64,000 nucleotides of DNA from Heterotrichella gracilis (lineage: Eukaryota; Sar; Xanthophyceae; Tribonematales; Xanthonemataceae), in the NCBI GenBank assembly GCA_032358255.1, contig JAULBX010017303.1:1-64000 (forward strand), in the 5' to 3' direction. Shown in pieces: positions 32,501-63,121 of the stretch; the stretch's first letter is position 1; the number at the start of each line of letters is the position of its first letter. The notes under the pieces are model-generated. The model made no database searches. It was not told the DNA's origin and saw only the letters and a list, made by a program, of their open reading frames with translations. The position numbers and the translations under genes were made by a program.

Positions 32501-35500
32501 GGGTTCTTGGCCTGCTGTTTGGGTGTGTACTGTAAGCATGCATGATGGGCTGGCGAGGTTTGCGGTGTGTGCGATTAATTGACCTTTTGATGTCAGAACT
32601 GGACATGTTGTTCGAATGCCAAATTACGTTGGTCACCTACAGGCATTTTCAGAATTGGCAATTACAACCTGCTTACTAAGCCCTAGTTGCCCACTGTTGC
32701 AATGCAGCCCTTACCCTAATACCCAAACCCTTCTCGCGCGACTGATACCGCCCTCCCCTTGCCACGCAGGCTTCTTCCTTCGGCTGCCCGGCGGCCCCAC
32801 CTCCAAGTGCATCACCGTGTCAGAGACCCTGCTCCCCACAGCCGCCAACTACCTGCACCTCCACGAGTGCGCCCTGCCTTCCTTCCCAGACGTGGCCGGC
32901 CAGCAGCTGTGGTCATATGGCCCCAGGGTGCAATCCGTGTGCCTGGCAGCATACCCGTGGCTGTGCCTGGGGGTGCAGGTCTCTGGGAAGGAGGCAGCCA
33001 CGCCCGAGACGCTCACCGGTGCCCCAGTTGTTGCCTACAACATGACAGCGCTGGCGAATGTTCCCATGCTGGCCTACCAGTGGGAGCTGGAGGTGACGCC
33101 ACAGGCGCTGCGGGTGAAGCTGGCGGCCAATGACGGGGTGTGCATCGCTACTGCGGATGGGAACACGGGTGACATGACGTACCTGGCAGTGGGGCCATGC
33201 GCGGGGTCTGATGCCGCCCTGTTTGCTGCTGATGGTAAGGGATGCAATCAAATGGAAAGATTTGTTCATTAAATGGTAGTGCTGGTTGTGTCTGATCTTG
33301 ATGTCAAGGAATGCATAAATGACTTTTATTTTAAGCATCACAAACAATGTCTTGCATGTTCCAGGACTTCATGTGGCTGAACAAATTGGCCGAACGATTT
33401 CTGCACTCGTGAGGTTCCCATGCCATATTGATGGATTTGTGCACAATTAATCCCCTTCCCGCAGCGGTTGGCTTTGTGGGCAACCTTCCCTCCGCCTCCG
33501 CCAACCTCACCCTGCAAGGGGAGCAGTGGCTGTCCATCGGGACCAGCGAGAGCGAGATGATGATGGCATCCATCTACTCCCTGCTGCTGGACAACTCCAT
33601 CAGGGGGGTGAATGTCAAGCTGCAGCCGGGCACTCCCTCGCAAGCTAGGAGGAGGCTGCAGGGTAAGTAGGGTTTTTTTAGGTTTAGGGCTTAGGGCCAG
33701 TATCCACCCCACTGATGTCCCATGACATATAGCGCCCGTTTAATGCCTGTACGCCATGTATCAGAACTACCATCAAGCTTGCCAGTGGATCATGTCATGG
33801 CTGCCTGCATTGGATACATGCTGTTGCTAACCCCTCCACCACTGTGCGACTTACAAGTCAGAGCAATGCTAATCAGTACCCCCCGTGCAGGCGCATTGGA
33901 TATCATGAAAGCACCCGTCCCTGTCATCCCCCTCTCCATCGTCTTCCATGCAAGCGACCCAGCGGTTGTGGCAGAGGCACAGACAACCACGCAGGAGGCA
34001 ATCGACGATGGGTCCTTTGCAGAAATCATCGCTTCAAATGGGTTCCCAGCCGATGGGGTGGTGCCTCCAGGTGAGGACCTCTTTGCTATAAACCAAACAA
34101 TAAACTTCACATTTTGCGTTACATGGATTTAAGGAATACAAACTGACACTGAAGTGCTCATCAAATTGCACTGTTGTTGGAGCCGCGTCCGTGAATGGTT
34201 TGCACCTAAATGTGCAACCGCTCCTCCCGGGTGCAGTCAAGCCATCGCCACCTGCCGTGGTGGGCTCGCCCCCAGTGGTGTCAAAGCCACCTGTCAAGCC
34301 CGTGGAGCGCTCACCACCTAGTGTCAAGCCCCACGCCCCTCCCACTGCGCAGCCCCCAGCAAACACCCTCCCACCCCCACCTGCGGCACCAAATGGTGAG
34401 GATCCCCACTTGCTGCCACGCATGCGCTGCTTGTGCCACCCAAAGTCTGCATGCTGCTGCTTATGCCGAGATCCTGCACTTGCCAACTGGACTGAAACCC
34501 GTAGAACACGTTGTGGATCAAGGACATGCAGACTTTGTGGATTTGTGGATTTGTAGACACGTTGTGGATCAAGGACATGTAGTAAAACACGTTGTGGATC
34601 AAGGACATGCACTTGCCATCTGGACTGAAGCCCTTGGTGGATCCAATGGCCCAGATTCACTTGGGTGACGTGCGCTGCACGGCATCAGTGGCAATCAATT
34701 AAGGCTGCTTTCTTTATGCAGGCAATGTTGCGTACCACAACTCAATGTCTGCAGTGGAGATCTTTGGGATAGGTACGCAGCTACAATCGCCGCCTGCCGC
34801 ATCCATCGCAATACGCATGCAGCACCTTGGTACATTGCTGTCTTTGTGGCAGGCATCACTTCCTGGACAATAGGCCACCCATAGCGTTTGCTCTCACTAC
34901 CATGCTTTTTTCAATGACATGAGTTGTGACAGGATATGTTACTGATCCACCATTCACTTTCTTTTCTTGTTGCCCCTGCAGTCGCCGGATCCCTTGCTGC
35001 CCTCGCCCTCCTGGTGCTGGGATTGGTGTGCATCCCCAGGTGCATTCGCAGCCGCAAGACCAACCGCCTGATGCACAAGCAGGGGCTGCGCAACCTATCC
35101 ACCGCACCCGCCGCCGACACCCCCATCATGAAACCCTCCAAAGCCCCAACCAAGGGCAAGAAGGTGTTCCACATCACCACCACCCCGGCTGGGGAGACCG
35201 GCAGGCGCGGGTTCTGGGGATTCATGGGCAAGGGCAAAGATCCCGAGGAATCGGACATCATCTCGCCCACCACCTACAACCAGTCGGCCAAAAACTCGCC
35301 CATCAAACAGGGGATCAAGTATGATGACCTGGAATCCCCAGATCCCATCGTGAAAGCCCTAGGGTCCAACGCGGCCCTGGCCACACCCTCTCCCACCCAG
35401 CGCCCAATCCCCGTCCACATCTCCGCCCAAGGGGCCCCGGGATCAGCACAAAAGGCTTTCTTCTCACCCACAGCCAGCCCCTTTGACGTTGGCAGCGCCT

Positions 35501-38500
35501 CCCCTTCACCTGCCTCCTCCCCGACCCTCGCCCCACCACCCGCCACCACCCCTGGGGAGGCGCCATCCCCCATCGCCTCCCCCTTTGTGCCCCGCTCGGT
35601 GGTGCGCCCCCTGTTCTATGAGTCAGATAATGACAGCGTGACCTCCTCCCGCATGGCGCAGCAATTGGCCACAGTGACGGCTGCGGCGGCAGGCATGGGC
35701 ATCCAGGAGGACCTCATGCTGTTCGGGAATGACACAGGTAGGGTTTAGGATTGGGAACCCGAAGCTAGGGTTTTGATCACAGCAATGGCTGCGGCAGGCA
35801 TGGGCATCCAGGAGGACCTCATGCTGTTCGGGAATGACACAGGTGGGGTTTAGACTAGGAACCCTACGCTAGGGTTTCAGTCACAGTGACAGCAACAGCA
35901 TGGGCATCCAGGACTGATAGGGTTAAGGGTTTGGGTTGAGACCCTAAGCAGTGGTGTGTAACACAAATGGTGGCCAATCAGTCAGACAGAAGGTCTAAGG
36001 TGGCTAGGGTTTAGACCAAGAACCCTAAACATGTGATGGACAACCGGCGTCCAGCCTGACCTCAAGAACCGGTACCCCAGTCAGAAACCTGTGCCCTGAT
36101 TATAGCAATCTTTGTGTGAATACAGGCAGCAGCCAGTTGGTGGACAACCCCGCCTACAGCCAGACTGAGGGAGAGATTGTCGCTGCGCTGGGTGGCGCCC
36201 GCCTGTACAGCAACCCTAGCTTTGAGAAGGACGATGCCCTCCTGCGGGAGGCCACCGAGGAGTTTGAGACCCCGCACGAGCTGAACGACATCACGGGGAT
36301 GTTTGCGCCAGACGCGCCAGGCGGTAGGTCCAAACTATAAACCCTAAACCCTACACCTGCTAATGGCGTGATTTTTGCACGTGCTGGGCAGTAGGTGTAA
36401 ACCCTATTCCTTAAACTTTGCATTAGCTTAATCGGGTTTCAAGGATGTTTGTGCCAGATGTGTCAGGCGGGAGGTATAAGCCATAAGCCTAAAACCCGCA
36501 CCAGCGTAAATGGGTTACAGGGATACTTGGCCCAGACATGAAACATGTTGCGCAGGAGGTCTAGAGGTTGACCTAGACACCTAGTACCTTCGAGGTTCAT
36601 AAATGTTGCAGGCAATGTCCCGACAGGCCTGCATGGTAAATGTTGCTGGTTGCTGGGAACCCAATTCCATTCATTTTCCTCTTTACTGACTGCTTGTTGT
36701 GCCACTTCAGCAACTTCCTCCTCTCTGCTCGACACCCACACCTCCCTGCTCAACACCTCGGCACTGGCAGATATGGTGCTGCTGCCACAAGAGGCGGTGG
36801 CCATATGCATTGGGGAGGATGGGGCGCCGGTGCTGCTGGGGGCGACTGAGTACGCACAGGTAAGCGGAGATGCTCATGGGGCAAGCAAGCTTTATGTACG
36901 GGTCTTTGCCAATTGAAATGTCATGGAGTTGCCTTTTAGTATAATCCGGTAGTTGCAGTGTATGGTTCCAGCCCATATGCGTGTCAATCTACTCGTGGTC
37001 AAGAAATTTGATGTCCCACAACTCATAATTATTTGCTTTCTTTATATTATGTTGACTTTTGTTATTATCCGCTTTGCAGGTGTTCAAGGGCGTCCTGAAC
37101 GGCAGCCAGGAGGTAGCTGTCAAGGTGATCACCAAGCCCCTGGACGAGGAGCACAAGAAGGCGCTGCTGAGGGAGGTGCTGGTAATGCATGACTGCGATA
37201 AGGACAACGTGGTGGCATTCCATGGGGTCTGCCTCAAGGTAGGGGCACACAGCTGGGCTGTCTAGGTGGTCAATCTCAGCACACGAATATGTTTCAGCAT
37301 AATTTAATATTATTGTCAAAAATGTCTTCTGCTGGAAGTTCCGGTAATACAGTCAGTTTCTGGCCACTTGGCTTTGAATGCCTAGCGCAGGCAGTCCTCT
37401 TCTGTGCCAATATTCAACCACATATGAGCTGGATGATCATGTCATGAGTTCCAATGATGATGAAGTGACACTCAACCACCGGTGCGTATGTGCAGGGTGA
37501 CCAGGTGATGCTTGTGACTGAACTGGTGAGCAACGGCAGCTTGAGGGAGGCCCTTGCATCAGGCACAGAGGACTTTTCATGGAATGGAAGGTGCGGCAAA
37601 TAACAAAGCGTGAAAAAATGCCATCCCAATGCAGTCGGGGGGTACATCGCTGCAATGCCGGCTCGATTGGGACTCCTTAGGCTCAGGCTTTGAAATCAAT
37701 TATGCCAAGTGGCTCTTGTCGCCGTCTTTTTGAAGGCCATGGCATTGCTTATTCCTTCAGGATAATATAATATACATGCCACCCCTGTCCATCCCATAAT
37801 ACGATTTTAAATCCTGACTATTTTTCCCTGTCTCCAGAGGCAAGGCCATTGCCCTGGAGGTGGCCCATGCGCTGCTCCAGCTGCAGAACCACGTGCCCAA
37901 GCTCGTCCACTACAGCCTGACCAGCAACAACGTGATGCTTGGCTCCAGCGGCACAGCCAGGCTGAGCGACGTGGGCATGAGGAGGGCGGTGGCTGGCGAC
38001 TCTGCTGGTAAGAACCAACTCCCAACCCACCCATTGTTGTGAGGGTGGTTTAAATTTTTTTGGTTATTGCGGTATGTATTACAGCAGCTGGATCGGACAC
38101 CAGAACTATCAAGGTACAAAATAGAGAAAGCACATTGGAAAAAGAGCACATATTGCCTGCTGCGTTGAACAAGTACATTCCTCACACTAGCCTGAAATAT
38201 GTGGCAAGAACTTTTACACTGTAATCTCCTGGAGGAATCCATCCACCCACGGTGGGCACAAGCCACCCATTCCTGCCCAGCACCATGATGAATTGCAACC
38301 ACCACATGCGCCTTTGACTCACCTGCCCTTGGAGCCTCATGCAGGGTCCGATGCCTGGTCCTCCCCCGAGGTGCGCCTGGGCCAGCGCTGCAGCGAGAAG
38401 GTGGACGTGTTCAGCTTTGGTGTGGTGCTGTGGGAGATGGTGTGCACGGGGGAGACGCCTGTGCTCGGGAACATGCGGGCACCAAGGTAAGGCATGCCTG

Positions 38501-40242: not shown

Positions 40243-43200
40243 TCACTCCTCATCTTCCTGCATCCAAGCAAACTGCGCAGCGCAGTCCATTGCAAGGCTC
40301 ACCGGCGTGATGCCAACAGGCGCATCTTTCCCCACTGCTGCGTCTGCTGCAACAGCAGGGAGCACACTCAACGCTGTACGGGCCCCCATGGCGCATTTTG
40401 CTGCTTCCACATCGCCTGCGCCACCCATGGCACTGCTCTGGGGCTGAGGCCAGAACACTATATGAGAGCCTGGAGGTGGTGAAAGTGGTGCACCACCTCC
40501 CTGGCTCTCATTGTCCAATCCACTGCCCGCCATGATGGTTCCGGTTGTCTGCAAGGCTTGCGGTGCAGGGCTAAGCTGGGGGACGTTGTCGGGCTGGGTG
40601 AGCTCTGAGAGGACGTTGCGGTACAGGCCTTGCATGCATGCTGAAACTGACAGGCGCCGGTTGGGTGGGGTTGGTTGACCTGGTGTGCAGTCTGCAGCAG
40701 AAAATGTGGTTTCTGTCAGGTGGTGTGTGGCAGTGCTGTGGGGAGGGGCGGCTTTGGAGCGAGCGCAATAGAGGCGCTGTGTGCAGGGCATGGCACCAGC
40801 GCATGTGCAGATTACGCCATGCCACAGTGTCACAAAGATGTGCACAGTGTGACACAGCTCACGCAAAATGCATAATTGCATATTTGCACATCACATTTTT
40901 GCATATCATATATTTGCATATCACAATGCAATTACCCAAAACTCTCTTATTTTTATATCCTATTGATTTTCAGTAATGGGTAGGCAGCCGTTCATGGCCT
41001 GCATTGATCATGCAAACAAGCCATCCTCCTGGGACCCTACCTGTATGCTCCACAATGTCCATGGCAGAAGGCTCCCTCTCCACCTCACCCCCCTGGCAGG
41101 CCACATTCTCCATGCCACCACTGCCACACGGCGCGACACCTGTAGCAGCAGCCGGCGCCAGGTGGCCCTGCCTGTGGCCATCAAGATCCATGGGCTGTGG
41201 CTCGGCAGCTAGGCTGCCAGCATGCTGTGTCTGTGTTGCAAACATGGAAAGTGAAGCCAGCCGCTGTGGGGTGCTGCCAATGGTGGGACTGGTGTGCGCC
41301 TCAGCTGGGAATGTTTGCCTGCCAGCTGCATGGGGTGGAGCGCCATCAGGGCTGGATTGCATGCTGTGTGGCAGGCCTGGTGCAGGGAGGGGGTTGCTGG
41401 GCTGCAAACTTGCCAGGAGCTGGTCGTATTTGGAGGTTTGTTCCAGGAGTTCAGATTTGACCGACTCCAGCTCCTCTATCAGACTGCAGTTTTCAACTTC
41501 CAACCTGCATGCATTCAGGTTGTTAATAGCTGCCAGCCAGCAACCTGGAAATGGCCTTACATGTACGTCGTAGGGCGGCCCTGGTGCGCCTATCCACTGT
41601 TACGGCGCAGCACAGTCACAGCCATCTGCGCGCTCACACTCCTTGCATGCAGATGGTGAAAACAAACACAATTTTGAATTTGACTCTGCCGCAATTGCAG
41701 ACAGCTGTGCACGGTTGCGTATAGCTGTGATCACAGGAAACTCTAGTTCAAATATGAGTTGATTTACAGTGTCACCTGATCACATCCTTCCGCTACAAGC
41801 ATTGCTACCAGGTGTGATCAAAGACATTTCCAGTTCTAATAGGTATTTGTACAAAACTGATATAGTATATTAATTTATGTACAATGTCACCTGATCACAT
41901 CCTTCCGCTGCCTTGCCACCAGCTGCTGCGCATTTACGACAGCCGCATCACAAAACTGCTTCAGAGCCCCTGCGTGCACGTGCCGCCAAAGTGAAAAGGA
42001 ATCACTACATGTGAGCAAAGTATCCCAGTATTTGTTTCTTTTACTTTACTAGTAGCATATGTATACACCCCCGAGTGCCCCTAGCAATTGCACTGGCAGG
42101 AACTACTCCTGCGCCATGGGCCTATGTTATATACATTAACAGGGTATGTGAAATGAGTTGTGAGGATCACCCGAATACTCCCCGTAAGCACTTAGCAACC
42201 AGGGAAGATGCCATCAAGGGCTTGCAGAATATCTTTTCACTTACATGTGCGCACTGACTCAGATTATCACAGATGATCAAGGCCAATCCTGCAGCCTGTA
42301 CTTGTGCACACTGAACAGAGCATGCACCTGTTCAGGCTGGAGAATCAGCCTTGATCATCTGTGACAGCTTGTGTATGTGCGCGTCACCTGTGTAATGCGT
42401 TCCAAGTGACGTATGCACCAGCGCATGCAGTACTGACGTCAACGGCATGGGTACCTGCTATGGAGGTTGATGTTGCCGCATCCAACTTGAGGACCTCAAG
42501 CTGCTTGGACAGTGTGCACTCCCTGATGAGGATCCCCAGGCCCGCCACTGGGCGAGTGGCTCCAGAAGCAGGCGATGGCCTCTGGATTGGTGTGGCAGCT
42601 TTGTTTCCTGGAGAAATTTCAACTTTACTGGCAGGTAAAGTTGGTGGAAAATACGCCAAGACCTCAAGTATTGACCCATCAACATGCCAGGTATCCTGGC
42701 CCAAAACTACATAGCATGTGGCCCACGGGGTCAGGGTATCAGTTGACAACGTTCTTCACCAAATCTACAGCATCTGAATGAGACATCGTATGTTTAAACT
42801 TACAGCCACTGCATACATATGTTCTCGTGAGATTGCTGCGCGTGCATGGTCATGCTGAGCCCAACAACCCAGGTTTTGGTCAGGCGACAGCACACCTCTG
42901 GATCTCTGCGCAGGCTTTGCTGGCTTGCCTTGTGCCCCCGCTGCCTTGCCAGCAGCGCCCCGCGGTCGAGGGGGCTTCTTGTGCGCTGCTGGGGCTGCAG
43001 GTTTGTCTGTGATAGCTGCCCCTGCAAATGAAACACGGGCGCATGTCAGAGCAGAGGAGGGCAGTGAGGCAGAGGGAAGGACAGGGGTGGCTCTGAGTGA
43101 TATGCAATTGCTGCGTATTTAAATGCCAGGAACCCTCAAGGACAGGTACAGCTCGATACTGTTGCTGTGCAATGGGAAATGCTGCAGTGGTTGCAATGTA

Positions 43201-46200
43201 CACATTCAGAACACATTGTGGTTTTGCACTGGTGGCCCACCAGATAGATACTGCATCACGTTTAACTGTTGTATAAGGTGTGCCGTGGGCTGACGGAGGG
43301 CAGGGTACCCACCCGGTGTGGCAGCGGCAGTGGCAGTGGCAGTGGCAGTGGCGCACTCCACAGGTGTCTTAGCAGCAGGTGCACCAGCCGTAGGTTCATG
43401 CCCTTTGACACCAGCCCCTTTTGGCCCTGCTGGGGTGCCTGGGCGGGGCTGTAATGCAGGTGCCTTCCTGGCTGATGCTGGGGAGGGTGCCGGCGCCTGC
43501 AGTGAACCCTCCTGGGCCTTGGGCAAGCAGCTCCTATGGGCACCGGCCATGTTTTAAGCTTCAATAGCCGTTTTGAAGCAGTGACAGGTGGCATTTAATC
43601 AAGGGACACATAAACAATCATCTTGAGACATCTTGTTCAGCGCACACAATATAAATTAATATTATTTTCAAATAATACCTATTTACATGCAGCGTTCAAT
43701 CTAAATTAGTTGAATGCCGCATGCATAACTAACCAGGTCCTAAGCTCCTTGCCATTGCGCATGCACATTCCATACCTGGCGGTGCAGGGCGCTGCTGCAT
43801 GTGTTGCTGGTGCATGCAGCGCATCCTCCTTGACCTGGCCACAGATCGCCTTCTTGACCAGCACAGCCGACTCCTCGTCAGGCGTCACGATGCGGTCCTG
43901 CAGCGCTGCCTTCTCCTGGGCGCTCAGGGGGGCAAAGCCAAACTTGGCGGTCCACATGGGCAGCAGCGACCTCACAGAGGGTATGACCAGGAAGCGCACG
44001 CCAAGGTGCTGGAGCATGTCCTCAACTGCCTGTGGTGGAATATCATATGCACGGTCAGTTGGCATAGTGCATCTTAAGTAAGCACACTTGTCATTGACAG
44101 TGTGACCACACAGTGCTGTTAATTAACATTAATCACTGACTGACATGATGGATTTGTGGCGGTTGTCATAGTTGTGGGATCATGTGCAATTTTGCCTACG
44201 CGGAGCTTTGAACTCCATGTTCTGCTTATGAATTTAGGAGAAAAACAGTCAGTTTGATCAGCTATAGCTGTTGCGTACATTCACCAGCCGTTTGCAGTTC
44301 CCTTCCCGCCTGTACCCTTGCTTGGTGGCGACGAATGGCAGTTCCGCAAAGTTCCTCCCAAATATCCTGACACAACATCCACACAGTGACTGCGTTTGCA
44401 TACAGATACGCAATCTGCAAACTGCGCAATGTTGTTCATTCTTGTGATGCATGCATGATCATGACGTGAAAAGTGCTTGGATTCAAACAAATTTTACTGC
44501 TATCATGAAGGTACAAACCACCTAGTCAAACATGGCATAGAGAGATGTCCTTCATTTTGAAGACTGCATATGCTTGCAGAGTTGGCATTCAAACTGTGTG
44601 GGGTGGTACAGTAACTCACCGAAGCGAGGCAGCGCTCACAATTGTTGCTCCTTTGCGCAGCACGGCGATCCTGAAATTACCTGCGCATAAACAAGACTTG
44701 TGTTATACATTGCGCAACAAAAACTTCTAACCTGCGCCAGAATACAATTTGAAATGTGTGAGCTTCAACAGCTGGCCCTGTTTAATTTGCATGTTGCCGC
44801 AAGGCTTTTTACGCTATCTGTATAGAGAATGCGGCATATAACAGTAATATCCTTCATGAATCTTAACCAGCACAATCACGTACTGAAATCAAACGTTTCT
44901 TCCTCCTCATCCTCATCTTCTGTGACTTTGTCCTTGGGAGCTGGCATCTCATTGTCGGGGGTTTCATATGATTGGCACACCATTTCAATCAGCTCCCTTC
45001 CATTCTCCATGTCCAAAGGATCTGTGAAAATTGCGTGCACACATTCAGCGCAGGCGCCTAGGATATCAATGATGAAACCAACAGCAGTGGCTTAGCCTTG
45101 ACGTTCCAGCATTTTATAGGTGGCAGTGCAACCATCTGATGAGAATTCGTGCATCTTATGGTTCAGCACCAGATTGGACCATGATACAATTTGCACTCGA
45201 AGTCTTGCTGCAAGTTTCCGGTGTATACTGGTCCAAAACGATCTTGGAATAAATGATGCCAACTATATATATCATGTCACGAGTATACCTTTCTGTAATC
45301 ACTTGTTATGTGATGGCGTGTTATCGTGATTGTGACTGATAGAAACACAACACCAGTGGCTACTGTGACAGTGGCATATGCATTCACCCCATCCCGCATG
45401 ATACTGATGGGAGCAGAGTGCGTGTAGTGTGTAATCAGGGCTGCACACGCACCAAAGCACTCTTTGAAGATCTTCAGTGCCGCTTCAATCGCCCTCTCAC
45501 TTTCTGCAGGTGCATCATGATTCAGAAGCCAGAATAGCAGCAGTCATACACATGCATGATGCACAGTGACTCCAAACACTCTCAGGCGATATGAACAAAC
45601 CAAGCTTGATTCACACTACCGTAGTTTATTATTTTTAAATGTATTAAAAAAGTTGTAACCTCTTGATCTCTGGATATTACTCTACAGTATGTTCTCAGTG
45701 CACATTGTGATTAGAGTGCTGAATAGTTGCAGCGCGTCACCTCTGCGACCTTCAGCATATTTGACAAGTTGTATGCTGTAGTTCCCTGGTAGTTGCTTGC
45801 GCTGCAGGTCAATGTCCTGCAAGTACTTTCCAATCTTGCGACATTCCTGCAAGTGGGTAGCTCATTACTTGCTGTTACAGCGCGTGGGGTGTGCACCACA
45901 TCTGCATGCGGCATTACTAATGAGCATTCAGAGCAATTAAGGCACTGCAAGGTTGCAACACATTTGGCTCATAGTGCATCCGCGGGTGACATCCATATGA
46001 CCTACCCCCAAGGGTAATTTACTGTGACGTGTCCGGCATTTGCCAGGTGGGTTATTTACTGTGACATGCATTGCATTTGCCAGCTGGGTCCTCAGCATTG
46101 ACCTCCTAGGGTTTTTCTAGGCCTGCGGCAAATGCACGCAAAACCCTAGGAGGTCAGTGCTGAGGACCCAGCTGGCAAATGCAATGCATGCATGGCTAGA

Positions 46201-47457: not shown

Positions 47458-47577
47458 TGCCATTTCAAGGATGACTCGAGGGCGTAGTGCGTAGGGTACC
47501 CACGCCTTACTAAGATCATGATGAGTAAGGCGTGGGTACCCTACGCACTACGCCCTCAAGTCATCCTTGAAATGGCA
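47458..47577. repeat. Near-perfect 54-bp inverted repeat (hairpin)
   Basis: Arms 47458-47511 and 47524-47577 pair at 53 of 54 positions around a 12-base loop (AAGATCATGATG). The left arm runs from TGCCATTTCAAGG to CACGCCTTACT. No terminal target-site duplication is evident. Confidence 0.9.
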
Positions 47578-53485: not shown

Positions 53486-54906
53486 GCCACGGACAGACCC
53501 GATGTCAAGTGCGTCAGCCTTGGTCTAGGCAAGTCTGCCCATGGGTGGCTAGTTGACAGTTGCGCCACAGCATGGGTTATATTGATGCCACAGCGGTAAA
53601 CGAGGCATGGTTGGGTAAGCATAGGCCAGTAGCACCTTTGGACTTTCAAGGTCTTGTTAGCAGGCGGCACTCCTTCTGGGTAGGTTTTCAGTTTGAGATA
53701 GATGCCCTTGCAATGTTCAACCATGCTATCAAGTGCCCTTTTCCAGTGTAGTGAACTGACTGCCGTAGTACGTGCCGCAACTGATATTTTGACAAAAGCA
53801 AGCCTCGTAGTTCCCTGGTTTCGCACAGTTGTACAGTTTGCTGTGGAAAACCGTTGTACCTTCGGCCATGCTTGGAATTTTAGGGCCCTGCCTGTGCTGG
53901 GTGTGTGAACAACGACTGCTTTAGAGTTTGAAGAGTTGAATTATAGCCATAGGATGTTACAGCACTTTCTCACTTGATACAATTTCTGAAAAGCGAAATT
54001 CAAGCGCTCTTGCCTAAGTGCTCATTGTTTTCAGTGTGCTATTTCCATACCAAGCTTGCCCATATCAAAAACACGGTGAAACACTTGAAAGTAGATACGA
54101 GCAGTGGTTTCAAGGCTCCCACCGGCTGACAAAAGGTGAACTTTGCGTGTTGTTGACAGCTAGTGTCTCGTCGATGTGCTTTAAAAAGACTCCACGGAGC
54201 TGGCCAACCAGCTTGCGGCATTTTTTGCAAATACTTGCTTGTTGCTGTGCTTGCGCTAAATTGGCGCCTGTTTTGTGGTGCATGCTGTGCATATACTTGT
54301 AACCAGACCATTTGCAGTTGCATTTTGCAAGCAAACCTTGTTGGGTGCTCGCTGTCTCACTCAGACCTTTGCGGCTGGGCTACTGTAATAGGTGCCATGC
54401 CTTGGGCGGCCCATGGCATCGAGTGCAGTACACGCGCCCTATCACGAGGCACCACGAAACTGAGTGCATTTTGTCACCAGCAACGTTTGCACTGCACCCA
54501 CCTGATGCACTAGTGGTTCATAAACCCTAGCTTTAAACCCTAGGCCAGGGTTTATCCACACGAGGGCAGGCAGCGGAGGTGCAGCCGTCAGAGCGGTCAG
54601 GTCTTGGAAGCCGTGACCCAGGGCTTAAGCTTTGTGGTGTCAAAGCAGTGCTAGGCGCTTTTTGGTGACATAATCTCGTGCAGCTATTGTCCGCTGCATT
54701 TGCTTAGCTGAAGAGGGGAACGGTGTCGTAGCTCGACGCGCAGCCAGTCAATAGCCACTTCCGAAAGAGCTTGTGGTGGGCGACCGTGGTAGCCTAACCC
54801 CGAAACTAGTTGTCGTCAAACGCATATAGTTGCGGGCGTTTGCCATACGCATTAGGCAGCTATATTGTATTTGAAACTTCCGCGCGACTAGCGGGGATAG
54901 TGCAGG
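53486..54906. other. Intergenic, upstream of the PHOX-like gene
   Basis: 1.4 kb without exons of matching phase. It contains the 3' UTR of the Fra a 1-associated-like gene and the promoter of the PHOX-like gene, including a cluster of telo-box-like motifs at 54521-54556. Confidence 0.5.
54521..54556. promoter_or_regulatory. Telo-box-like cluster upstream of the PHOX-like gene
   Basis: Three AAACCCTA / TAGGGTTT units (ATAAACCCTAGC, TTTAAACCCTAGG, CAGGGTTTAT) lie within 36 bases, about 360 bases before the start codon. In plants, AAACCCTA telo-boxes are known promoter elements bound by Myb-type and other factors. Here it may instead be one more interstitial telomere tract. Confidence 0.45.
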
Positions 54907-57900
54907 ATGGGCAAGAAGTCGAGAGCATCGCCCACTGGGCCTGCAGTGGTTGATGAAGTGAGTGGTGCACACACTCACCAGCTGCCCTGAAAGCATCCTG
55001 GTTACCCCGGGCTCGGTCGTTTCCAACCACCTTGACGGTGCTGTGTGTTTGCAGGCGGCTGTGTCGGCAATCGCTCAGCTGAAGGACGACGGGAACAAGC
55101 ACTTTGGTCGCAAGGAGTACCAGAAGGCGCTGGAGAGCTATGAGAAAGCCATCAAGCTCATTCCCGAGAACCACGCAGACGGTGCACTCCTGCACAGCAA
55201 CAGGGCGGCGTGCTTCATGATGTTCAAGAGGTACGTGCGGCCCTGGTTGCGGGGTACGGAACCCTGCACAGCTCATGCCATGTAGTCCACACAACCTTTG
55301 GTACTGTACGCAACACTTGGGGGGGGTGGGGGGGTAATTTACAAAACCACGCTCGTGTATGAGTATGAATTCGTTTTTGTTGGGCTCTGCTGTCGTGAAT
55401 AATACGTAGTTTTAGTGGGCAGTACTGTTTATCAGCTTTCATCTGGGGGAGGTCTCAGGTTGTCAGTTGCATGCATTCCAGCAGTGCAGCTGTGGTAGCA
55501 CTTCACCAGCTTTGCGTTACACCAGCTCTGCACTGGCAACCAGCACCTATCCTGCTGCGGTCCATGTAGTTGCACAGTGAAACCCCGTCCTAGCTTTCCC
55601 TCAGCAACCCGCTAATCCCCCGATCCTCCAAGCACACGCTTGCGCCATTGCCAATGGCTGTATTGACGTTTCACAAGGTTGAGCAACGGCAGTGATCTGA
55701 ACTGGACACCGTCTGGGTGTGACGCTACTGGTTGACAATGCTCCAGCTCGAAACCCGCCACCAGCAGCCCATTTAGCAAGCTGGTGCCAGTTTCTCACTA
55801 TCATGGTGGTGATCTGCGTGCAAGCGTTTCTGTTACGTGTGTTGCCAGCTATCGTGCCCGTTATTGACGCTGAGTTTCGATTTTGGCAACAAGCGCAAGT
55901 AACCCCTTCTCTCGCGTAAGTGCAGTAACCGAGCCATGCACGGTCCACCCGACCCAGCCTGGCAATAATCACCTCACCACCTCTCACCCACTCACCACAA
56001 TACCCCTGCACGCACTCACACTCTCGACTCTCCCACAATTTGTGCACCCACCACCCACCACCCAGGTGCCGTGAACCTTAAACCCTAAACCCTAAACGCA
56101 ACCCTTAACCCTACTCCAGGTTCAAGGAGGCTGTGAAGGAGTGCACCGCTGCCCTGGATGCCCAGCCTGGCTACCACAAGGCGCTCATCCGCCGCGCCAA
56201 GGCTTACGAGCACATGGGCCAGTTCAAGCAGGCGCTGTCGGACATCCAAAAGGTCAACAAGACGGACAGCGCCACAAAGGACACAGCGGTGCGTGGCGAC
56301 AGGGGGTTTAGGCGCAGGGTTCAAAATGGTTTAGGGTATTAGGGTTTGGGGTATTTGCGGTGCCAAGGACCATTGTCAGCAGACTCTATGCATACAGAAG
56401 GTCAAGTAGGTGAACAGCGCCACAAAGGAAACAGCAGTGCGTGGTTGAAGGGGTGCAGGGGGTTTTCCAGGTCCAGGGTAGGGTTTTCATGGGCGGTGGG
56501 TTTGGGGTTGAGGGTTGAGGCTGCGCCAAGGCCTGCGAGGGCATGGGCCGGGTTAAGCAGGCGCTGTCAGGTATACAAGGGGTCAGGTAGGCGGTCAACG
56601 CCACAAAGGGCACAGCGTTTAGGGTATAGGGTTTAGCGTTTAGGGTATAGGGTTCAGGGTCAAAGCAATTGACAGTGGGATGGACCTGCGGTATGTTGGA
56701 GCGGGAGGGCTTCGGTAGGGGCGGGTGGTGATGCTGCCTTTGGCACGGGTTGGGGTGGTGGCGGGTGGGGGTGTTGCGTGGTGGGGATTGGTGGGGGTGC
56801 TGCAGTAATGCCTGCCCACTGCATGCATGACACATTTAGGAGGGTGCATGCATAACACGCATGGGTAAAGTCAGGAAACATGAAATTATCACAGAAATAT
56901 TCCGGGGTGTCTAAGGTGGAGGCTACACATTCGTCCTCCCCACATACAGCATCTGGATTCCGGGCAAATGCGCAGCTGCCATATCCATCCGTGCCCCTCT
57001 TCCCGGCCCTCCCCTCCTACACACACGTCCCCCCTCCCCCTTGCAGGAGTCTGAGAAGCGCCTGCGGGAGGCGGTGGCGGGCAAGCGCACAGCGGCACTG
57101 GCCAACGGGGCGCCCCAGCTACCCCAGCGGGCCCCAATCTTCCAGGTGCGCCTAACCCTAAACCCTAAACAGCTACCCTAGCCTAGTCTTCCAGCGTGGG
57201 GCTGAGACCAACTCCCTAAAACCCTGCAAACCCACCACCCAAACGGGGCGCCAATTTGTGGCCGACCACTGCATTGCTTTAATCATGATATGCCCATGCA
57301 GAGGGTCTTGTTGGCGCAGCATACTGACCGCATGTGGCCATGGGGCCTGTGTGGATGGCCCAAGGGTCGAGGATCTTAAATTCTGGGTTGAATGTGGTGG
57401 TGGCGGCATGGCAATTTAGAAGTGGCGCTGGGGGAGGTGGATGGGTGGTGGGGGGGGGGCGACATGGACTCGCAATCTGTCCTACCCACCCCCACACATT
57501 CTCCGTCCCCTCCCGCATGACAGTGGAGGGCACCGCCAACCAACTCCCCATCCACACACCCATACTGGCGCACCTGCACCTGCGTCCCCTCCCCTTCCCT
57601 ATACCCCCCACAAGGATGACGTAACCCCCCCCCTGGGCTCGTCTCTAGGCCAAGTGCACGCTTGGCAACGAGACGAGCGTGGTGGAGGGGTGGGTGGGGA
57701 GGTGGGTGGGTGACATGGACTCGCAATCTGTCCCACCCACCCTACAGACATCCTGCGCCCCACCCCCACACTGCCGCATCTGCGTACCCTCCCCTCCTAA
57801 TGTCCCCCCCCAATCTCCCTCCCCCCTCGTCTCCAGGCCAAGTGCACGCTTGACAATGAGACGCGCGTGGTGCACATGAACGAGACCGTGTCGTACGCCG

Positions 57901-60900
57901 ATCTGCTCAACGCGGTGCGCCAAAAGTTCCCTGGGTCGGGCCCAGTCATCCTCAAGTACCTGGACAAGTGAGTGAGGGTTGGAGGCTTTGAGGGCTTAGT
58001 TACTTTATTGTGGGTGATTAATGTGCGGCAATGGTTCCCTGGTTCCGTCGGAGTCCTTCTCATGTACCTGGACAAGTGAGTGAGGGTTTGGAGACTTTGA
58101 GGGTTTAGACAGCTAATTGTGGGTGGTTAGTGTGCGCCAATGGTTTCCTGGCTCCGTCCCAGTCATGCTAAGTACCTGGGCGGGGGGGAGATGAACCCCG
58201 TTCCTGCTTTGTGTATCGTCTTGCTGGGTTGGCCAGCGCATGTAGTTGTCAGGGTAGTGAGTTTGAGCAAAACGGGGTATGGTAGCTATGAAAGGTCTTA
58301 ACAAAGTAGGATTTGGTAACTACAAAAAGGTACTGATTTACAAATCATTATCTCGTTTTTCTGAACAATAAAACACAATCAATATCCACATTCTAGGGAG
58401 GGCGATCTGGTGACCATCACAGAGCGCGGCGACCTGCACAAGGCTCTGCGTGAGCTGGTGGAGACCAGCGAGAGGATGGGCCAGCTTCAGCGCGGCTACC
58501 CTGCGCTCATGACACCCCTGCGCATCCAGGTCATCAAGGTGGCCTCAGAGGTGGGTAATAAGAATAAGAGAAACTAATAATAATGTGGATATTTTTTGTA
58601 AAATAATCATGTGGTCATCAAGGTGACCACAGAGGTGGGTACTGGCGCTGGGGGGGAGGGGGGGGGTTTTGGGCGTTGTGGGCCCGGCACGCATGGCGAG
58701 GGTTGGGGCGAGGTTGAGGCGGCTAGAGCGCATAGGTCAGCCGCAGGGTGGGTAGCCTGCACTTTGGAACCCCACTGGGTTGTGGGTCCCGCAAGGCTTC
58801 ATGCGCCCTCGCGAGGATCAGCACCAACTTGAAAGGCATGGCGCAACCATGTTTTCACACGGCGGTTTGCAGGAAAGTCTAATGCAAGTGCTGTGTTCCT
58901 GATGTCCCAAAGCATTGAACGAGCCCAGTTATTTCCTCTCGTCTCCTCTTATCCACACATTTTCTCCCCCTCCCAGGCTGATGTCCCCCGCCCCCCTGAT
59001 GTGGAGCTGGCCCAGATCGCGCGTGCGCAGGCCGCGTTGGCTCAGAGCCACAAGCAGCAGCAGCTGGCACTGGAGCAGGCAACAAAGAAGGTAGGGGCGC
59101 AAACCCTAAATCCTAAACCCTAAACCCTTACCCTTAGCAGCAGGCACAGGCGCAGGCAACAGAGAAGGTGGGGGCACAAACCCGAAACCCTAAGCTCTTA
59201 ACCCTTTAACCCTTAGCCTTAGCAGCAGGCACTGGAGCAGCAGACAAAGAAGTGTCACCTTTGCCTTACACGCTAGTGTGCGCTTGCAAGCATGAGGCAT
59301 GCAAATCCACCTCAACGCGTGGCAATCTAGCCCAAAGGTGGTTGGGTGGCGGCAGGTGAAGTTGCTGCATGGGCTGGGTTGCACCTAAACCTGTAGGCCT
59401 CCAAAGCCTGATAGCCTATATCATTCGAATACTGGTGCATGTATACGTGCATCTGCGCAGTACGGTATGCAATACATGCGCAAAGCTCCCCCCTTGCCAC
59501 TAACCCTGCCATACCCTCCTCACCCCCCACCCACCCCCCACCCCCCTTGCAGGAGGAGCCCGACCAGGTGTATGAGGTTGAGGAGTGGCTGGTGGACTTT
59601 GCAAATCTGTTCAGGGACCAGCTCAACATCGACCCAGAGAGGTAAAACCCTAACCCAAACCCTAGAACAAGCCAGCAAAACCCTATCACCAAAACCTGTT
59701 TAAGAGCCAGTTCAACATTGGCCCAAAGAAGCAAAACCCTAATTTGAATAACCCCGGCATGCCTCTGGGCAACGTGTTGCGCACACTCTACCTACCAAAA
59801 CCTGGTCACTAATCTGAGTACAAACCACTCTTGCTAGAAAGCGCTGGCAGATGAAACATCACAAATAAACAGATATGCAGCTCGGTGATGCTGCAAAACC
59901 CCTAGGCACATGCGCCGCGGCAGTCACTCATGCAGCCCTAATCGCCACCCCCTCTAGGCACCTGGACCTAAACCCTAAACCCCAAACCTGTTGCCTACAC
60001 CCTAAACCCTTGCCACCCTGCAGGCACCTTGACCTGGTTGCCGAAACCCTATACTTACACCCAAGACTCTAAACCCTTGCCACCCTGCAGGCACCTTGAC
60101 CTGGTTGCCGAAACCCTATACCCTACACCCAAGACTCTAAACCCTTGCCACCCTGCAGGCACCTCGACCTGCACGCCATTGGCTACGACAAGTGCACGCA
60201 GGCGCTGGACGCTGCAGTGAAGGATGAGAAGGCGTTGCCGCTGTTTAGGCAATCGGCGGACAAGTTCATGGTAAGGGATGGGACTCTGGTGGACCCAGGG
60301 GCTGTGCAGGCAAATGCCTGCGATTGACTGTGCATGGCTTGACAAGGGTGTTGGGGGTGGTGATGGTGGGGGTGGCGCAGAGTAAGTGCACACTGCTGTG
60401 GTGGATGAAGAGACGCAGCCGCTGTCCAGGCAAATCAGAGGGCGCGTGTGTGTGTAGGAGTAGACAACCCTGAACTCTGAAACCCTACCCTAAACCCTAC
60501 ATCCCACCCCTCGCAGGGGGTGACCATCACGGGTCTGTACAACTGGGGCCAGTCACTAAACCCTATATTCCTCCCAGTAAACCCTAAAGCTGAACCCTTA
60601 ACCCCTGCAGGAGGTGACCATCACCGGGTCTGTACAACTGGGGCCAGTCAATAAACCCTAAGTTCCTCCCGATAAACTCTAACGCTGAACCCTTAAACCC
60701 TGCAGGAGGTGACCATCACGGGGCTGTACAACTGGGGCAACATCCACCTCTGCCTGGCCCGGCGGCTGGTGGAGCAGGCACAGGCCGCAGGCACGCCACT
60801 GGCTGAGGCGCTGCCAGCTGTGCTCAAGGAGATGGACGAGGCGGAGCGGAGGTGGGCACCGTTTTTCTACTATTAGTTAGACTACTGGACTAGGATGTAT

Positions 60901-63121
60901 AGTTCTTAGAGTCTTTTTAGCTCAGAATAATGGCGAGGTGGACCGCAGCCGATTGTGGAAAGGGGGGCATGTAGATATTGACATGTATAAATATGTCTGT
61001 CGCCGATGGGTTAGTGGGTTGACTGAACCATAGTTATCGGGCATTTCCACACTGACCCCCCACCATCGCATAAAGGTGAACAAGAAGGATCTACAACCAA
61101 AAGTTTCTCAAGCTTTTGGTGTCTGTTGCAGGTACAAGCAGGCCCTTGAGTTCAAGAGCGACTTCTACGACGTGCTGCTGGGCATGGCCACGCTGGAGTT
61201 TGAGCGGGCAAAGCTGGTGGCGGGCTTTGTGCCAGAGTCTGTGAGGTGGGTGGGGCGCTGGCGGGGGATAGGCGGAGGGGGTGGGGGGGGGTGCAACATG
61301 TGGCAGCGGTGAGGCCACTTGCCATGTGTGCAAGTGGCTACACGCACGCATTGGCTGGGAGATGTGGCGACGGCAAGCACGGGTTTTACCCTCAAAATCA
61401 ATGAGGACCAGACCCGGCCCCTCATTTTGCCCAGAGCGACATCTACTAGATAGCTTCTAAACCAGCTTTCCACACGATGCATACAAGACGCCACCCTCCT
61501 TCAGCACCTCTCGTCCAAAAAACTCAAAACACCCCCGCTTCCCCATGCAGGCCGGCGCCCCCCGCCGAGGGCTCTGACAAGCCCCCCCCCGAGGCGGTTG
61601 AGGAGCTCCAGAAGGCCACCCATGCGGCCAATGCAAAGGCGCTGGCGGGGCTTAAGGCGGAGGATGTGGAGGCGGCTACAGCGCACTTTGAGGCGGCGCA
61701 GTCCTGGGGGGGCCTGGCGCTGGAGGCGGCTCCCGGGCTGCAGGTGGCTATGGAGAAGGAGCAGCAGGTGGGCGGCAAAATGTAACAATAATAAATAATG
61801 ATAATGATATCAATAGAGTTATGAGGCGGCTCCCGGGCTGCAGGTGGCCATGGAGAAGGAGCAGCAGGTGGGTGGGAGGAAATGGTGATAATAATATTAC
61901 GTAATAACATAAAGTATCTAATAGAATTGTCAATGGCAATGAGAAGAAAGTAACAGCAGGTGGCCATGGAGAAGGAGCAGCAGGTGGGTGGGAGGAAAAT
62001 GTGGTGGAATAATTATAATAGAAACACAGAATGCATATAATGGCGCGGCTCCCGGGCTGGAGGTGGCCATGGAGCAGCAGCAGTATGTGGGTGGGAGGAA
62101 AGCAAGAAGGGATATGGTTTGGGGTCTGGGGCTGAGGTCCAGAGGAGCCTTGGGGTAGGCAGGCGTTGGAGGCGCAGCAGTGGATTTGAGCTTGAATATG
62201 GTCCTGCGGCTAGCCATGAATGCATCATGACACTCCCTCTCCCTATCCACATGCCCCTCGTTTTTCAACCCGTTCCACTCCACCCGCCCACCCCCCTCCT
62301 CTCCCCCCTCCAGGAGCGCATTGAGAGCTTGACTGGCTGGTTTAGGGTCCAGGATTAGGGTTCATGGTCCAAGGAGGATATTTCCTGTATGTCACTAATA
62401 ACTCCCCACTTCCCCCCCCCCCAGGAACGCATCGAGAGCTTCAAGGCCGCTGGCCAGGAGCCCCCCACCTTTGACACGCTTGACGCTGCTGCCAACGTGC
62501 ACCTCAACGTGGGTAACCACCTGTTTGAGTGGAGCCAGATCACGGGGGCGGTGGGGGCCAAGGGGTGGAAGGAGGCGGTGGTGGCGGCGGTGGAGAAGTT
62601 CCGCACCGCAAAGTGCCCAGAGGTGAGGGTTTAGGGTTTAGGGTTTGGGGATGAGGGTTTCGGCTCAGGATAGGGGTTTGCTTGGACATTCTGAATATTG
62701 CTAATTGCGCAGAGGGAAGGCGTATCTGGCTGGGTCACTTATACAAGGGTCAGATGCAGCACTGCAGGACGACCTAGATGGCGTAGGGCCACATTAGGCT
62801 GGGGACCCTCAGATTGCACATCATTATTAACACGTCTGCCCAGCGATTGTATGTCAGGCTGGCTCATGCCCTTGGTGTATGACCTGGAATGCACCTAAAC
62901 TACCGTAATAACCAATCGCCCTGCCCCAGGTGGACATCCGCAACGCGCTGCTGACCCACACCCTGAAGGACCAGCTGGATGACGTCATCCCCCCTGCACC
63001 CGAGCCAGTGCCGGAGCCAGAGGCAGCGCCAGCACCAGCGGCTGAGGCTCAGCCGGCAGCGGAGGCGCCCAAGGGGTTGCCTGCCCTGGGGAAGCCCAAG
63101 GGGAAGAAGGCGGAGGCTTGA
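54907..63121 (+). CDS. TPR-PB1 domain protein (PHOX / CLMP1-like)
   Basis: Fourteen phase-consistent exons: 54907-54957, 55055-55230, 56120-56288, 57047-57145, 57837-57967, 58397-58550, 58977-59090, 59553-59641, 60159-60270, 60706-60851, 61132-61245, 61551-61767, 62425-62622, 62930-63121; about 653 residues. The start MGKKSRASP is typical of the family. An N-terminal TPR array follows (KDDGNKHFGRKEYQKALESY, LHSNRAACFM, ALIRRAKAYEHMGQFKQALS; about 25-130). A PB1 domain at about 166-245 has its acidic OPCA motif YLDKEGDLVTITERGDL. The C-terminal part is helical and TPR-like (GLYNWGNIHLCLARRLVE, YKQALEFKSDFYDVLLGMA, VHLNVGNHLFEWSQI), ending in an Ala/Pro/Glu-rich and Lys-rich tail. In plants, PHOX proteins are putative HSP90/HSP70 co-chaperones, and CLMP1 acts in chloroplast separation in the cytosol. 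The introns are full of decayed copies of exon edges and telomere-like tracts. Confidence 0.93.
56085..56119 (+). repeat. Telomere-like tract running into an acceptor (PHOX exon 3)
   Basis: AAACCCTAAACCCTAAACGC, then TTAACCCTACTCCAG, ends exactly at the exon 3 acceptor. The repeat itself serves as the polypyrimidine-like end of the intron. Confidence 0.85.
56194..56660 (+). repeat. Echoes of PHOX exon 3 donor region with telomere-like joints
   Basis: The exon 3 end (about 56194-56296) is echoed at about 56392-56446 (AACAGCGCCACAAAGGAAAC) and at about 56521-56620 (CTGCGCCAAGGCCTGCGAGG onward). TTTAGGGTATTAGGGTTTGG and similar units lie between and after the copies. Confidence 0.85.
57145..57172 (+). 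repeat. Telomere-like tract at PHOX exon 4 donor
   Basis: The donor CAG|GTGCGCC is followed at once by TAACCCTAAACCCTAAACAG. Confidence 0.85.
57460..57850 (+). repeat. Tandem duplication carrying a decayed first part of PHOX exon 5
   Basis: Two copies of GACATGGACTCGCAATCTGT followed by CCCACCC-rich intron end in an acceptor and GGCCAAGTGCACGCTTG. The second (at 57837) is the real start of exon 5. The first (about 57649) carries an AKCTLGNETSVVE-like start but runs back into the repeat. Confidence 0.85.
57925..58190 (+). repeat. Three copies of the PHOX exon 5 donor region
   Basis: TACCTGGACAAGTGAGTGAG occurs as the real junction at about 57956 and as a copy at about 58065. A third, more decayed copy (TAAGTACCTGGG) lies at about 58169. 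The intervening CAATGGTTCCCTGG...TCC blocks repeat too. Period about 110 bases. Confidence 0.85.
58532..58640 (+). repeat. Echo of PHOX exon 6 donor region
   Basis: GTCATCAAGGTGGCCTCAGA with donor GTGGGT (real, 58551) is repeated as GTCATCAAGGTGACCACAGA with GTGGGT at about 58614-58640. Confidence 0.8.
59040..59255 (+). repeat. Echoes of PHOX exon 7 donor region with telomere-like joints
   Basis: The exon end (CAGCAGCTGGCACTGGAGCA, real donor at 59091) is echoed at about 59139-59170 and about 59221-59250. The joints are AAACCCTAAATCCTAAACCC and related units. Confidence 0.85.
59612..59760 (+). repeat. Echo of PHOX exon 8 donor region
   Basis: AGGGACCAGCTCAACATCGA (real) is echoed as AAGAGCCAGTTCAACATTGG at about 59702. 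Both are followed by GCAAAACCCTAA- or GTAAAACCCTAA-type sequence. Confidence 0.8.
59955..60180 (+). repeat. Repeated acceptor of PHOX exon 9 with telomere-like joints
   Basis: CCACCCTGCAGGCACCTTGA occurs at about 60014 and 60081, and the real CCACCCTGCAGGCACCTCGA at about 60149. A looser copy (CTAGGCACCTGGACCTAAAC) lies near 59955. Spacers are CCCTAAACCC-rich. Frames from the earlier acceptors meet stops. Confidence 0.85.
60475..60750 (+). repeat. Three copies of the PHOX exon 10 acceptor region
   Basis: GGTGACCATCACGGG...GTACAACTGGGGC follows a CAG at about 60518, about 60612 and 60706; only the last opens into the full exon. Joints contain CAGTAAACCCTAAAGC and similar telomere-like units. 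Period about 94 bases. Confidence 0.9.
61726..62100 (+). repeat. Four echoes of the PHOX exon 12 donor region
   Basis: GGCGGCTCCCGGGCTGCAGG with ATGGAGAAGGAGCAGCAG|GTGGG (real donor 61768) is repeated in full or in part at about 61823, 61955 and 62043. AT-rich ATAATAATAA spacers separate the copies. Confidence 0.9.
62310..62445 (+). repeat. Echo of PHOX exon 13 acceptor region
   Basis: CCAGGAGCGCATTGAGAGCT at about 62311 precedes the real CCAGGAACGCATCGAGAGCT at about 62421. TTTAGGGTCCAGGATTAGGG lies between them. Confidence 0.8.
62622..62652 (+). repeat. Telomere-like array starting within the PHOX exon 13 donor
   Basis: The donor GAG|GTGAGGGTTTAGGGTTT continues as AGGGTTTGGGGATGAGGGTT. 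The G-strand repeat supplies the intron's first bases (GTGAGGG). Confidence 0.9.

Follow-up and report, generated by a model that had tools for sequence, protein, structure and literature searches.

How do copies of exon ends come to lie in the neighbouring introns of a gene, and why are so many of them joined by telomere-like repeats? This question is raised by a PHOX-like gene (gene I; 54907-63121, plus strand), which has 14 exons and 13 introns, is open throughout and codes a product of 653 aa with TPR and PB1 domains (PB1 E 6.8e-14). It lies in a single 64-kb stretch of DNA, called here the window, which is the whole of the sequence analysed. Seven genes with 72 introns were modelled in it by a dynamic-programming gene finder and then curated by eye, the models being sequence-based. 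All introns (72/72) are of the GT-AG type, and the coding sequences of all seven genes are open. A Pfam scan of genes A, B, C, F and I identified gene A as a SNF2/RING helicase and gene B as a CNOT11 homologue, and gave no match for gene C. Gene F, on the minus strand and with introns, codes a plastid-type bL9 (best PDB match 28jw, bL9c, E 2.7e-52). By sequence the window is eukaryotic, and gene F together with the TTTAGGG form of the internal repeats makes an origin from a green alga likely. The 25.5 kb that we count as unannotated contain gene E, modelled in part, and several smaller genes. Introns are labelled by gene letter and intron number (I6, C3, D17 and so on). Exact short peptides, which reach close relatives only, found no relative of the CNOT11 part of gene B in viral_contigs and none of the PHOX-like protein in viral_contigs or genome_contigs.

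Self-alignment of the PHOX-like gene revealed copies of an exon edge, or echoes, at all nine exons for which the sequence-only reading had claimed them (3, 5, 6, 7, 8, 9, 10, 12 and 13). Donor edges are echoed for exons 3 (two copies), 5 (two), 6, 7 (two), 8, 9 and 12 (three), and acceptor edges for exons 5, 9 (three), 10 (two) and 13. The donor echoes do lie downstream and the acceptor echoes upstream, as that reading had it, but this is mere geometry, the intron being on that side.

On the donor side, the first echo of exon 3 (56364-56444, plus strand, as are all features of this gene) aligns without gaps at 83% over 56391-56444, and the second (56520-56617) stops at the exon end and continues into a TTTAGGG-like tract at 56617-56660. 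The end of exon 4 has a weak echo (p = 0.04, exon-edge test) at 57171-57195; it directly follows a telomeric tract at 57154-57170, the two together occupying 57154-57195, and a direct repeat flanks this tract at distances of 0 and 0 nt (p=0.038). The two echoes of exon 5 form a tandem array with a period of 108 (58023-58179), and the single echo of exon 6 (58613-58641) is preceded by an AT-rich joiner. Behind exon 7 (59101-59252), copies starting at 59136 and 59221 are separated by CCCTAAA tracts at 59101-59128 and 59178-59205. In the region 59645-59742 a telomeric tract begins 3 nt past the exon 8 donor and is accompanied by an echo of that edge (59692-59742). Exon 9 has left a decayed donor echo at 60387-60433, and exon 12 has three (61823-62101) with AT-rich joiners and spacings of 100, 116 and 103.

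On the acceptor side, exon 5 is echoed at 57576-57684, where the exon part covers 57649-57684. The three echoes of exon 9 (59925-60158), each followed by a CCCTAAA-like tract, repeat with a period of 66-68; they hold just 12-19 exon bases, and the exon-only test failed for them (p = 0.17), the match reaching 68 bits once the intron part was added. Two echoes of exon 10 (60480-60705) have CCCTAAA-like joiners and a period of 95, and one echo of exon 13 runs on into TTTAGGG-like sequence at 62339-62362 (whole feature 62290-62362). Two further tracts stand at splice sites with no detected echo, one 6 nt upstream of the exon 3 acceptor (56074-56113) and a TTTAGGG tract 3 nt past the exon 13 donor (62626-62660). 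The observation that some tracts touch splice sites was correct, as the exon 8 and exon 13 donors illustrate.

The joining sequence is of several kinds. Telomeric joiners follow exons 3, 4, 7 and 8, precede exons 9, 10 and 13, and occur in introns D19 and D20; those that follow exons 6 and 12, and the one in gene E, are AT-rich; the exon 5 donor array and a duplication in gene C are plain tandem repeats. The CCCTAAA/TTTAGGG joiners described earlier are real for many copies and do not extend to the AT-rich and plain cases.

The pattern had been described within one gene. It is present there, but edge copies turn up in B, C and D as well, and probably in gene E. Gene C (minus strand, 24655-24814) carries a tandem duplication of 77-78 nt over a donor junction, 95% identical and with no filler; by eye its copies share a 5-nt microhomology, ATTTG, and this is the sole junction read at both ends. 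In gene D (plus strand) we found a donor-edge echo of exon 5 (28423-28480), telomere-like sequence 1 nt past donor 19 with a donor-edge echo at 35788-35913 (together 35739-35913), and behind exon 20 CCCTAAA tracts with decayed donor-edge echoes (36338-36590), where further copies were seen by eye. Gene B (plus strand) has a donor-edge echo of exon 6 (20788-20828) and an acceptor-edge echo of the edge after intron 5 (20461-20510). The probable donor-edge echo in gene E, with its AT-rich joiner, is on the minus strand at 41752-41814.

These matches exceed chance. When introns with 80-nt flanks were matched to themselves at E < 0.01, 17/72 gave a match, compared with 1/216 dinucleotide-shuffled introns. 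At 21 of 142 exon edges the match in the own intron beat every one of 150 control segments taken from other introns, where chance would give about 0.9 such edges; 11/26 are in the PHOX-like gene and 10/116 elsewhere, and the acceptor edge of exon 9 falls outside this set. Arrays of at least 30 bits are found in 8/13 introns of the PHOX-like gene and 8/59 elsewhere, and this gene, with 20 of the 33 intronic telomeric tracts, is the richest in the window. Array pairs below 30 bits (F3 and one I9 pair) were dropped from the divergence, period, tract and edge counts. Since the gene was picked for its pattern, it is the tests made outside it that count; several tests draw on common data, and the arrays make counts non-independent.

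What was duplicated, and when? Fourteen of the 23 repeat periods lie within 77-111 nt and the others within 133-245. Among 18 edge pairs the exonic share of the unit varies from 0.10 to 0.66 and is non-uniform (KS p=0.002); the unit is centred at a median depth of 18.5 nt in the intron, with extremes of -12.5 and 64. In I5, I12, C3 and the acceptor array of I9, copy two begins where unit one stops, so that the copies are adjacent and direct. Pairs of at least 25 nt are 71% to 97% identical, which means that the duplication events differ in age. Introns with arrays are longer (a median of 432 nt, against 270 nt in the rest; p = 5e-6), in agreement with the lengthening of introns supposed before, but longer introns also offer arrays more room. 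The exon part of the echo is nearly intact in D19 and I12 (1/55 and 1/45 mismatches) while the intron part has diverged (12/71 and 37/210); these echo exons may be real alternative exons or may have been gene-converted. The low gap rate of exon parts in general (2 in 678 vs 40 in 828) was left unused because local alignments end at indels, and the longer ones are gapped.

We also considered other origins of such repeats. Window self-BLAST (E<=1e-3) showed no dispersed direct repeat of the kind that introner elements would leave, and these were rejected as a source; its three far matches are self-inverted palindromes. Hairpins of this type were seen in unannotated DNA at 46065-46190 (87% self-inverted), 47458-47577 (93%) and 42249-42382 (74%). 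Intron gain, whether through insertion or through tandem duplication, should leave the upstream exon end at the intron end or the intron start at the downstream exon start; this signature reached the 95th percentile in 4/72 introns per comparison, like mismatched introns (5.6%, 6.3%), and this origin was rejected.

The telomere-like tracts have their own distribution. Telomere 14-mers with at most two mismatches number 31 in the window vs 0.31 expected, and 35 tracts, telomere-like by sequence, pass the threshold over the 64 kb, compared with 1 when the window was mononucleotide-shuffled once. Introns hold 33 of the 35, exons none, and the remaining two lie in the 25.5 kb of unannotated DNA, which includes unmodelled genes; 25/26 exact CCCTAAA or TTTAGGG units are intronic. 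The enrichment near splice sites that had been predicted is present in the window as a whole, where 11/33 intronic tracts are no more than 20 nt away from a splice site and 3.4 would be expected (p=0.0003); outside the PHOX-like gene (4/13, 1.7 expected, p=0.08) the closeness is only suggestive. Direct repeats flank tracts more often than chance would have it: 10/33 tracts, in six introns, pass a level that 5.8% of randomly chosen intron positions attain, and 5/33 pass the 1% null level. By eye the D7 and C2 tracts also have short flanking repeats, which are not above control (p=0.5 and 0.3). Read on the coding strand, tracts of the donor side include 9 C-type and 9 G-type, those of the acceptor side 12 and 3, these counts being non-independent.

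Upstream of the PHOX-like start codon, at 54521-54554, telomere-like units are closely spaced; we presume that they may be a telo-box-like promoter motif. A donor-plus-telomere pattern had 0 matches in genome_contigs. Telomere-pattern matches in IMG/VR comprised 22 stretches, which we took as viral or other non-algal contigs and left out of the analysis; three of these contigs (L002, L018, L019) contain runs of about 15 TTTAGGG or CCCTAAA units.

If duplications arise everywhere, then we can ask: Are the exon-edge ones just the visible ones, exon-internal events having been purged and an exon copy keeping the pair recognisable? Purely intronic duplications exist (D17, A3), and 15/94 random intron-interior 60-mers have a copy in their own intron, a rate similar to that of exon edges. 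Nine of these 15 are in introns with an exon-edge array and six are not (D17 twice, D6 twice, A3 and D9), which shows that purely intronic duplication also happens. But the strongest local duplication of an intron takes in an exon edge in 14/16 cases (5.84 expected, p = 3e-5) and, outside the PHOX-like gene, in 6/8 (3.14 expected, p=0.04). With exons masked, 13/72 introns have an internal duplication, and the strongest one still lies within 6 nt of a splice site in 7/13 (0.81 expected; 0/200,000 simulations reach 7); outside the PHOX-like gene the same is true of 3/6, where 0.54 would be expected (p=0.006). Because this excess persists, exon conservation by itself does not create the edge pattern. 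The exon and intron parts of the duplicate pairs are also equally diverged (96 mismatches in 678, or 14.2%, and 121 in 828, or 14.6%), and few units are mostly exonic, contrary to what exon-initiated events followed by selection would give. As the whole explanation such ascertainment is ruled out by the masked search and the equal divergence, and as the main one we consider it unlikely. The process acting at exon edges that had been proposed is hence recurrent and junction-centred, though it coexists with duplication inside introns; outside the PHOX-like gene the evidence for the junction preference is moderate. Two repeats of the intronic kind are a unit of 30 nt in gene D intron 17 (34501-34611), which recurs at about 97% identity away from splice sites, and a direct repeat of acceptor-like sequence before a helicase exon in A3 (9150-9305), which ends 4 nt from the splice site.

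A possible, though less than convincing, alternative is replication slippage or unequal exchange, in which unstable tracts, present first near splice sites, would stall replication forks, so that the adjoining exon edge would be copied with them as part of the unit. It agrees with the position of the tract inside the repeated unit, copied with it before exons 9 and 10 at the periods given above, with the enrichment of tracts in array introns (9/16 vs 10/56 other introns, p=0.004), and with the 23/33 tracts that have no flanking direct repeat above the 95% null level. Yet duplications occur in introns with no above-threshold tract (I6, C3, D5, D17, B5, B6, A3), co-occurrence of tract and array outside the PHOX-like gene is not above chance (2/8 vs 8/51, p=0.61), and the position of tracts near splice sites is left unexplained. 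Retention of the copies for function, whether as reserve splice sites, as alternative exons in frame or as splicing elements of telomere-like sequence, seems very improbable to us. Several donor echoes do retain GT, and the gene finder calls four echoes in-frame exons (35798-35842, 57649-57693, 59144-59167 and 61844-61867; 45, 45, 24 and 24 nt); the nearly unchanged exon parts in D19 and I12 and the mostly C-type tracts of the acceptor side (12/15) point the same way, and such tracts may resemble pyrimidine-rich, branch-point-like splicing elements. Several other echoes, however, are truncated or have no GT, both exon 3 echoes have a stop in the original frame when read by eye, and periods divisible by 3 are at chance level (8/23). 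By the same count of periods an intronised coding tandem repeat was rejected. An assembly or sequencing artefact is scarcely credible: short repetitive units misassemble easily, but exon parts of the pairs differ from their exons by 0-26%, in five by more than 20%, some longer alignments contain indels, and the exon frames are open in all seven genes.

We regard as the best explanation, at a probability of about one half, that staggered breaks had both overhangs filled and were end-joined, sometimes with repeats added by telomerase, giving junction duplications. The tandem duplications are centred on junctions, recur at different ages and have telomeric tracts in both orientations between their copies. 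Double-strand breaks with staggered ends would have occurred repeatedly, centred around the exon-intron junctions; the two overhangs, in most cases roughly 100 nt long, would be filled in and end-joined, and a tandem duplication of the junction would result. If the 3' overhang was first extended by telomerase, or otherwise telomere-capped, telomeric units would come to lie between the copies, and which end was extended would decide between TTTAGGG and CCCTAAA. A 3' overhang is a substrate of telomerase and of CST, and because it serves both, the order copy, telomeric tract, copy would follow in either orientation. Later rounds would amplify the duplicated unit. The outer splice site would still join the original exons, so that the protein would stay intact and a junction-spanning product be tolerated, while the copies stranded in the intron would decay and lengthen it.

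The clearest young exon-edge duplication, that of gene C, counts against this model, having microhomology and no telomeric filler; polymerase-theta joining or slippage would account for it equally well. AT-rich joiners must come from something other than telomere addition. Also on the debit side are the 23/33 tracts with no flanking repeat above the 95% null level, the chance-level co-occurrence of tracts and arrays outside the PHOX-like gene, and the local copies of intron-interior windows. The fill-in model also leaves the centring of breaks on splice junctions unexplained. Candidate causes are transcription pausing, R-loops, nucleosome edges and base-excision patches; for R-loops, a link with GC skew was not established (array introns have a mean skew of 0.027 and the others one of -0.045, p=0.08). 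On balance, the interpretation offered by the sequence-only reading is partly supported.

Each of these repair steps has precedent elsewhere, and it is their concentration at splice junctions that looks new among the literature matches listed. In mammals break repair inserts telomeric repeats, and 6/130 rodent and 4/25 primate loci show a duplicated target (PMC2246262); human interstitial telomeric sequences are intronic in 31% of cases, which was judged compatible with random insertion (PMC7215372). Like those of primates, rodents and horse (PMC2246262, PMC7215372), the tracts studied here are short and internal and sometimes stand between target-site duplications; unlike the human ones, they are intronic in 33/35 cases, clustered near splice sites and often within multi-copy junction duplications. 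In mammalian cells, small tandem duplications form through 3'-overhang fill-in that requires CST, Pol alpha-primase and end joining (PMC8355091, PMC5730883), and they too are short direct tandem copies of local sequence. Such fill-in could plausibly leave telomeric filler behind, since CST is itself a telomere complex. That system, by contrast, is mammalian and uses nickase breaks, and telomeric filler and splice-site preference are not reported in the available portions of the two papers (PMC8355091, PMC5730883).

The nearest published idea among the matches listed is donor duplication through repair of 3'-overhang breaks in Lipomyces (PMC7138796), where stwintron formation duplicates a splice donor as we propose. 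The Lipomyces duplications, however, measure 4-7 nt and lead to nested introns, and the same partial text reports no telomeric sequence (PMC7138796). In the direct repeats near splice sites of Rogers and Bendich 2025 (PMC11782384), exon-intron border sequence is likewise repeated; they are 4-30 bp long, pair an intron's 5' border with its 3' border and are read as insertion scars, whereas here copies of one border, up to about 98 nt, lie inside the intron. Intron gain by tandem duplication of exonic AGGT is similar in that the duplication takes in splice signals. It makes new introns, whereas here existing introns grow and the gain signature is absent. Tandem duplications in rice were reportedly treated by Vaughn and Bennetzen in 2014. 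Among the literature matches listed, by titles and abstract openings, no description of exon-edge duplications joined by telomeric repeats was found, which is a weak sign that none exists.

How introns lengthen is poorly known, and junction-centred duplication marked by telomere repeats would link intron growth to break repair. More broadly, splice junctions could be places where staggered breaks, programmed or linked to transcription, arise especially often in this alga and are healed by telomerase and CST-Pol alpha, with introns being built outward from their ends; we put this forward very tentatively and hold it to be doubtful. If it were true, intron length would partly record telomere-type repair at exon edges. 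In any case, exon-edge copies within introns can mislead gene finders, and they might yield alternative exons.
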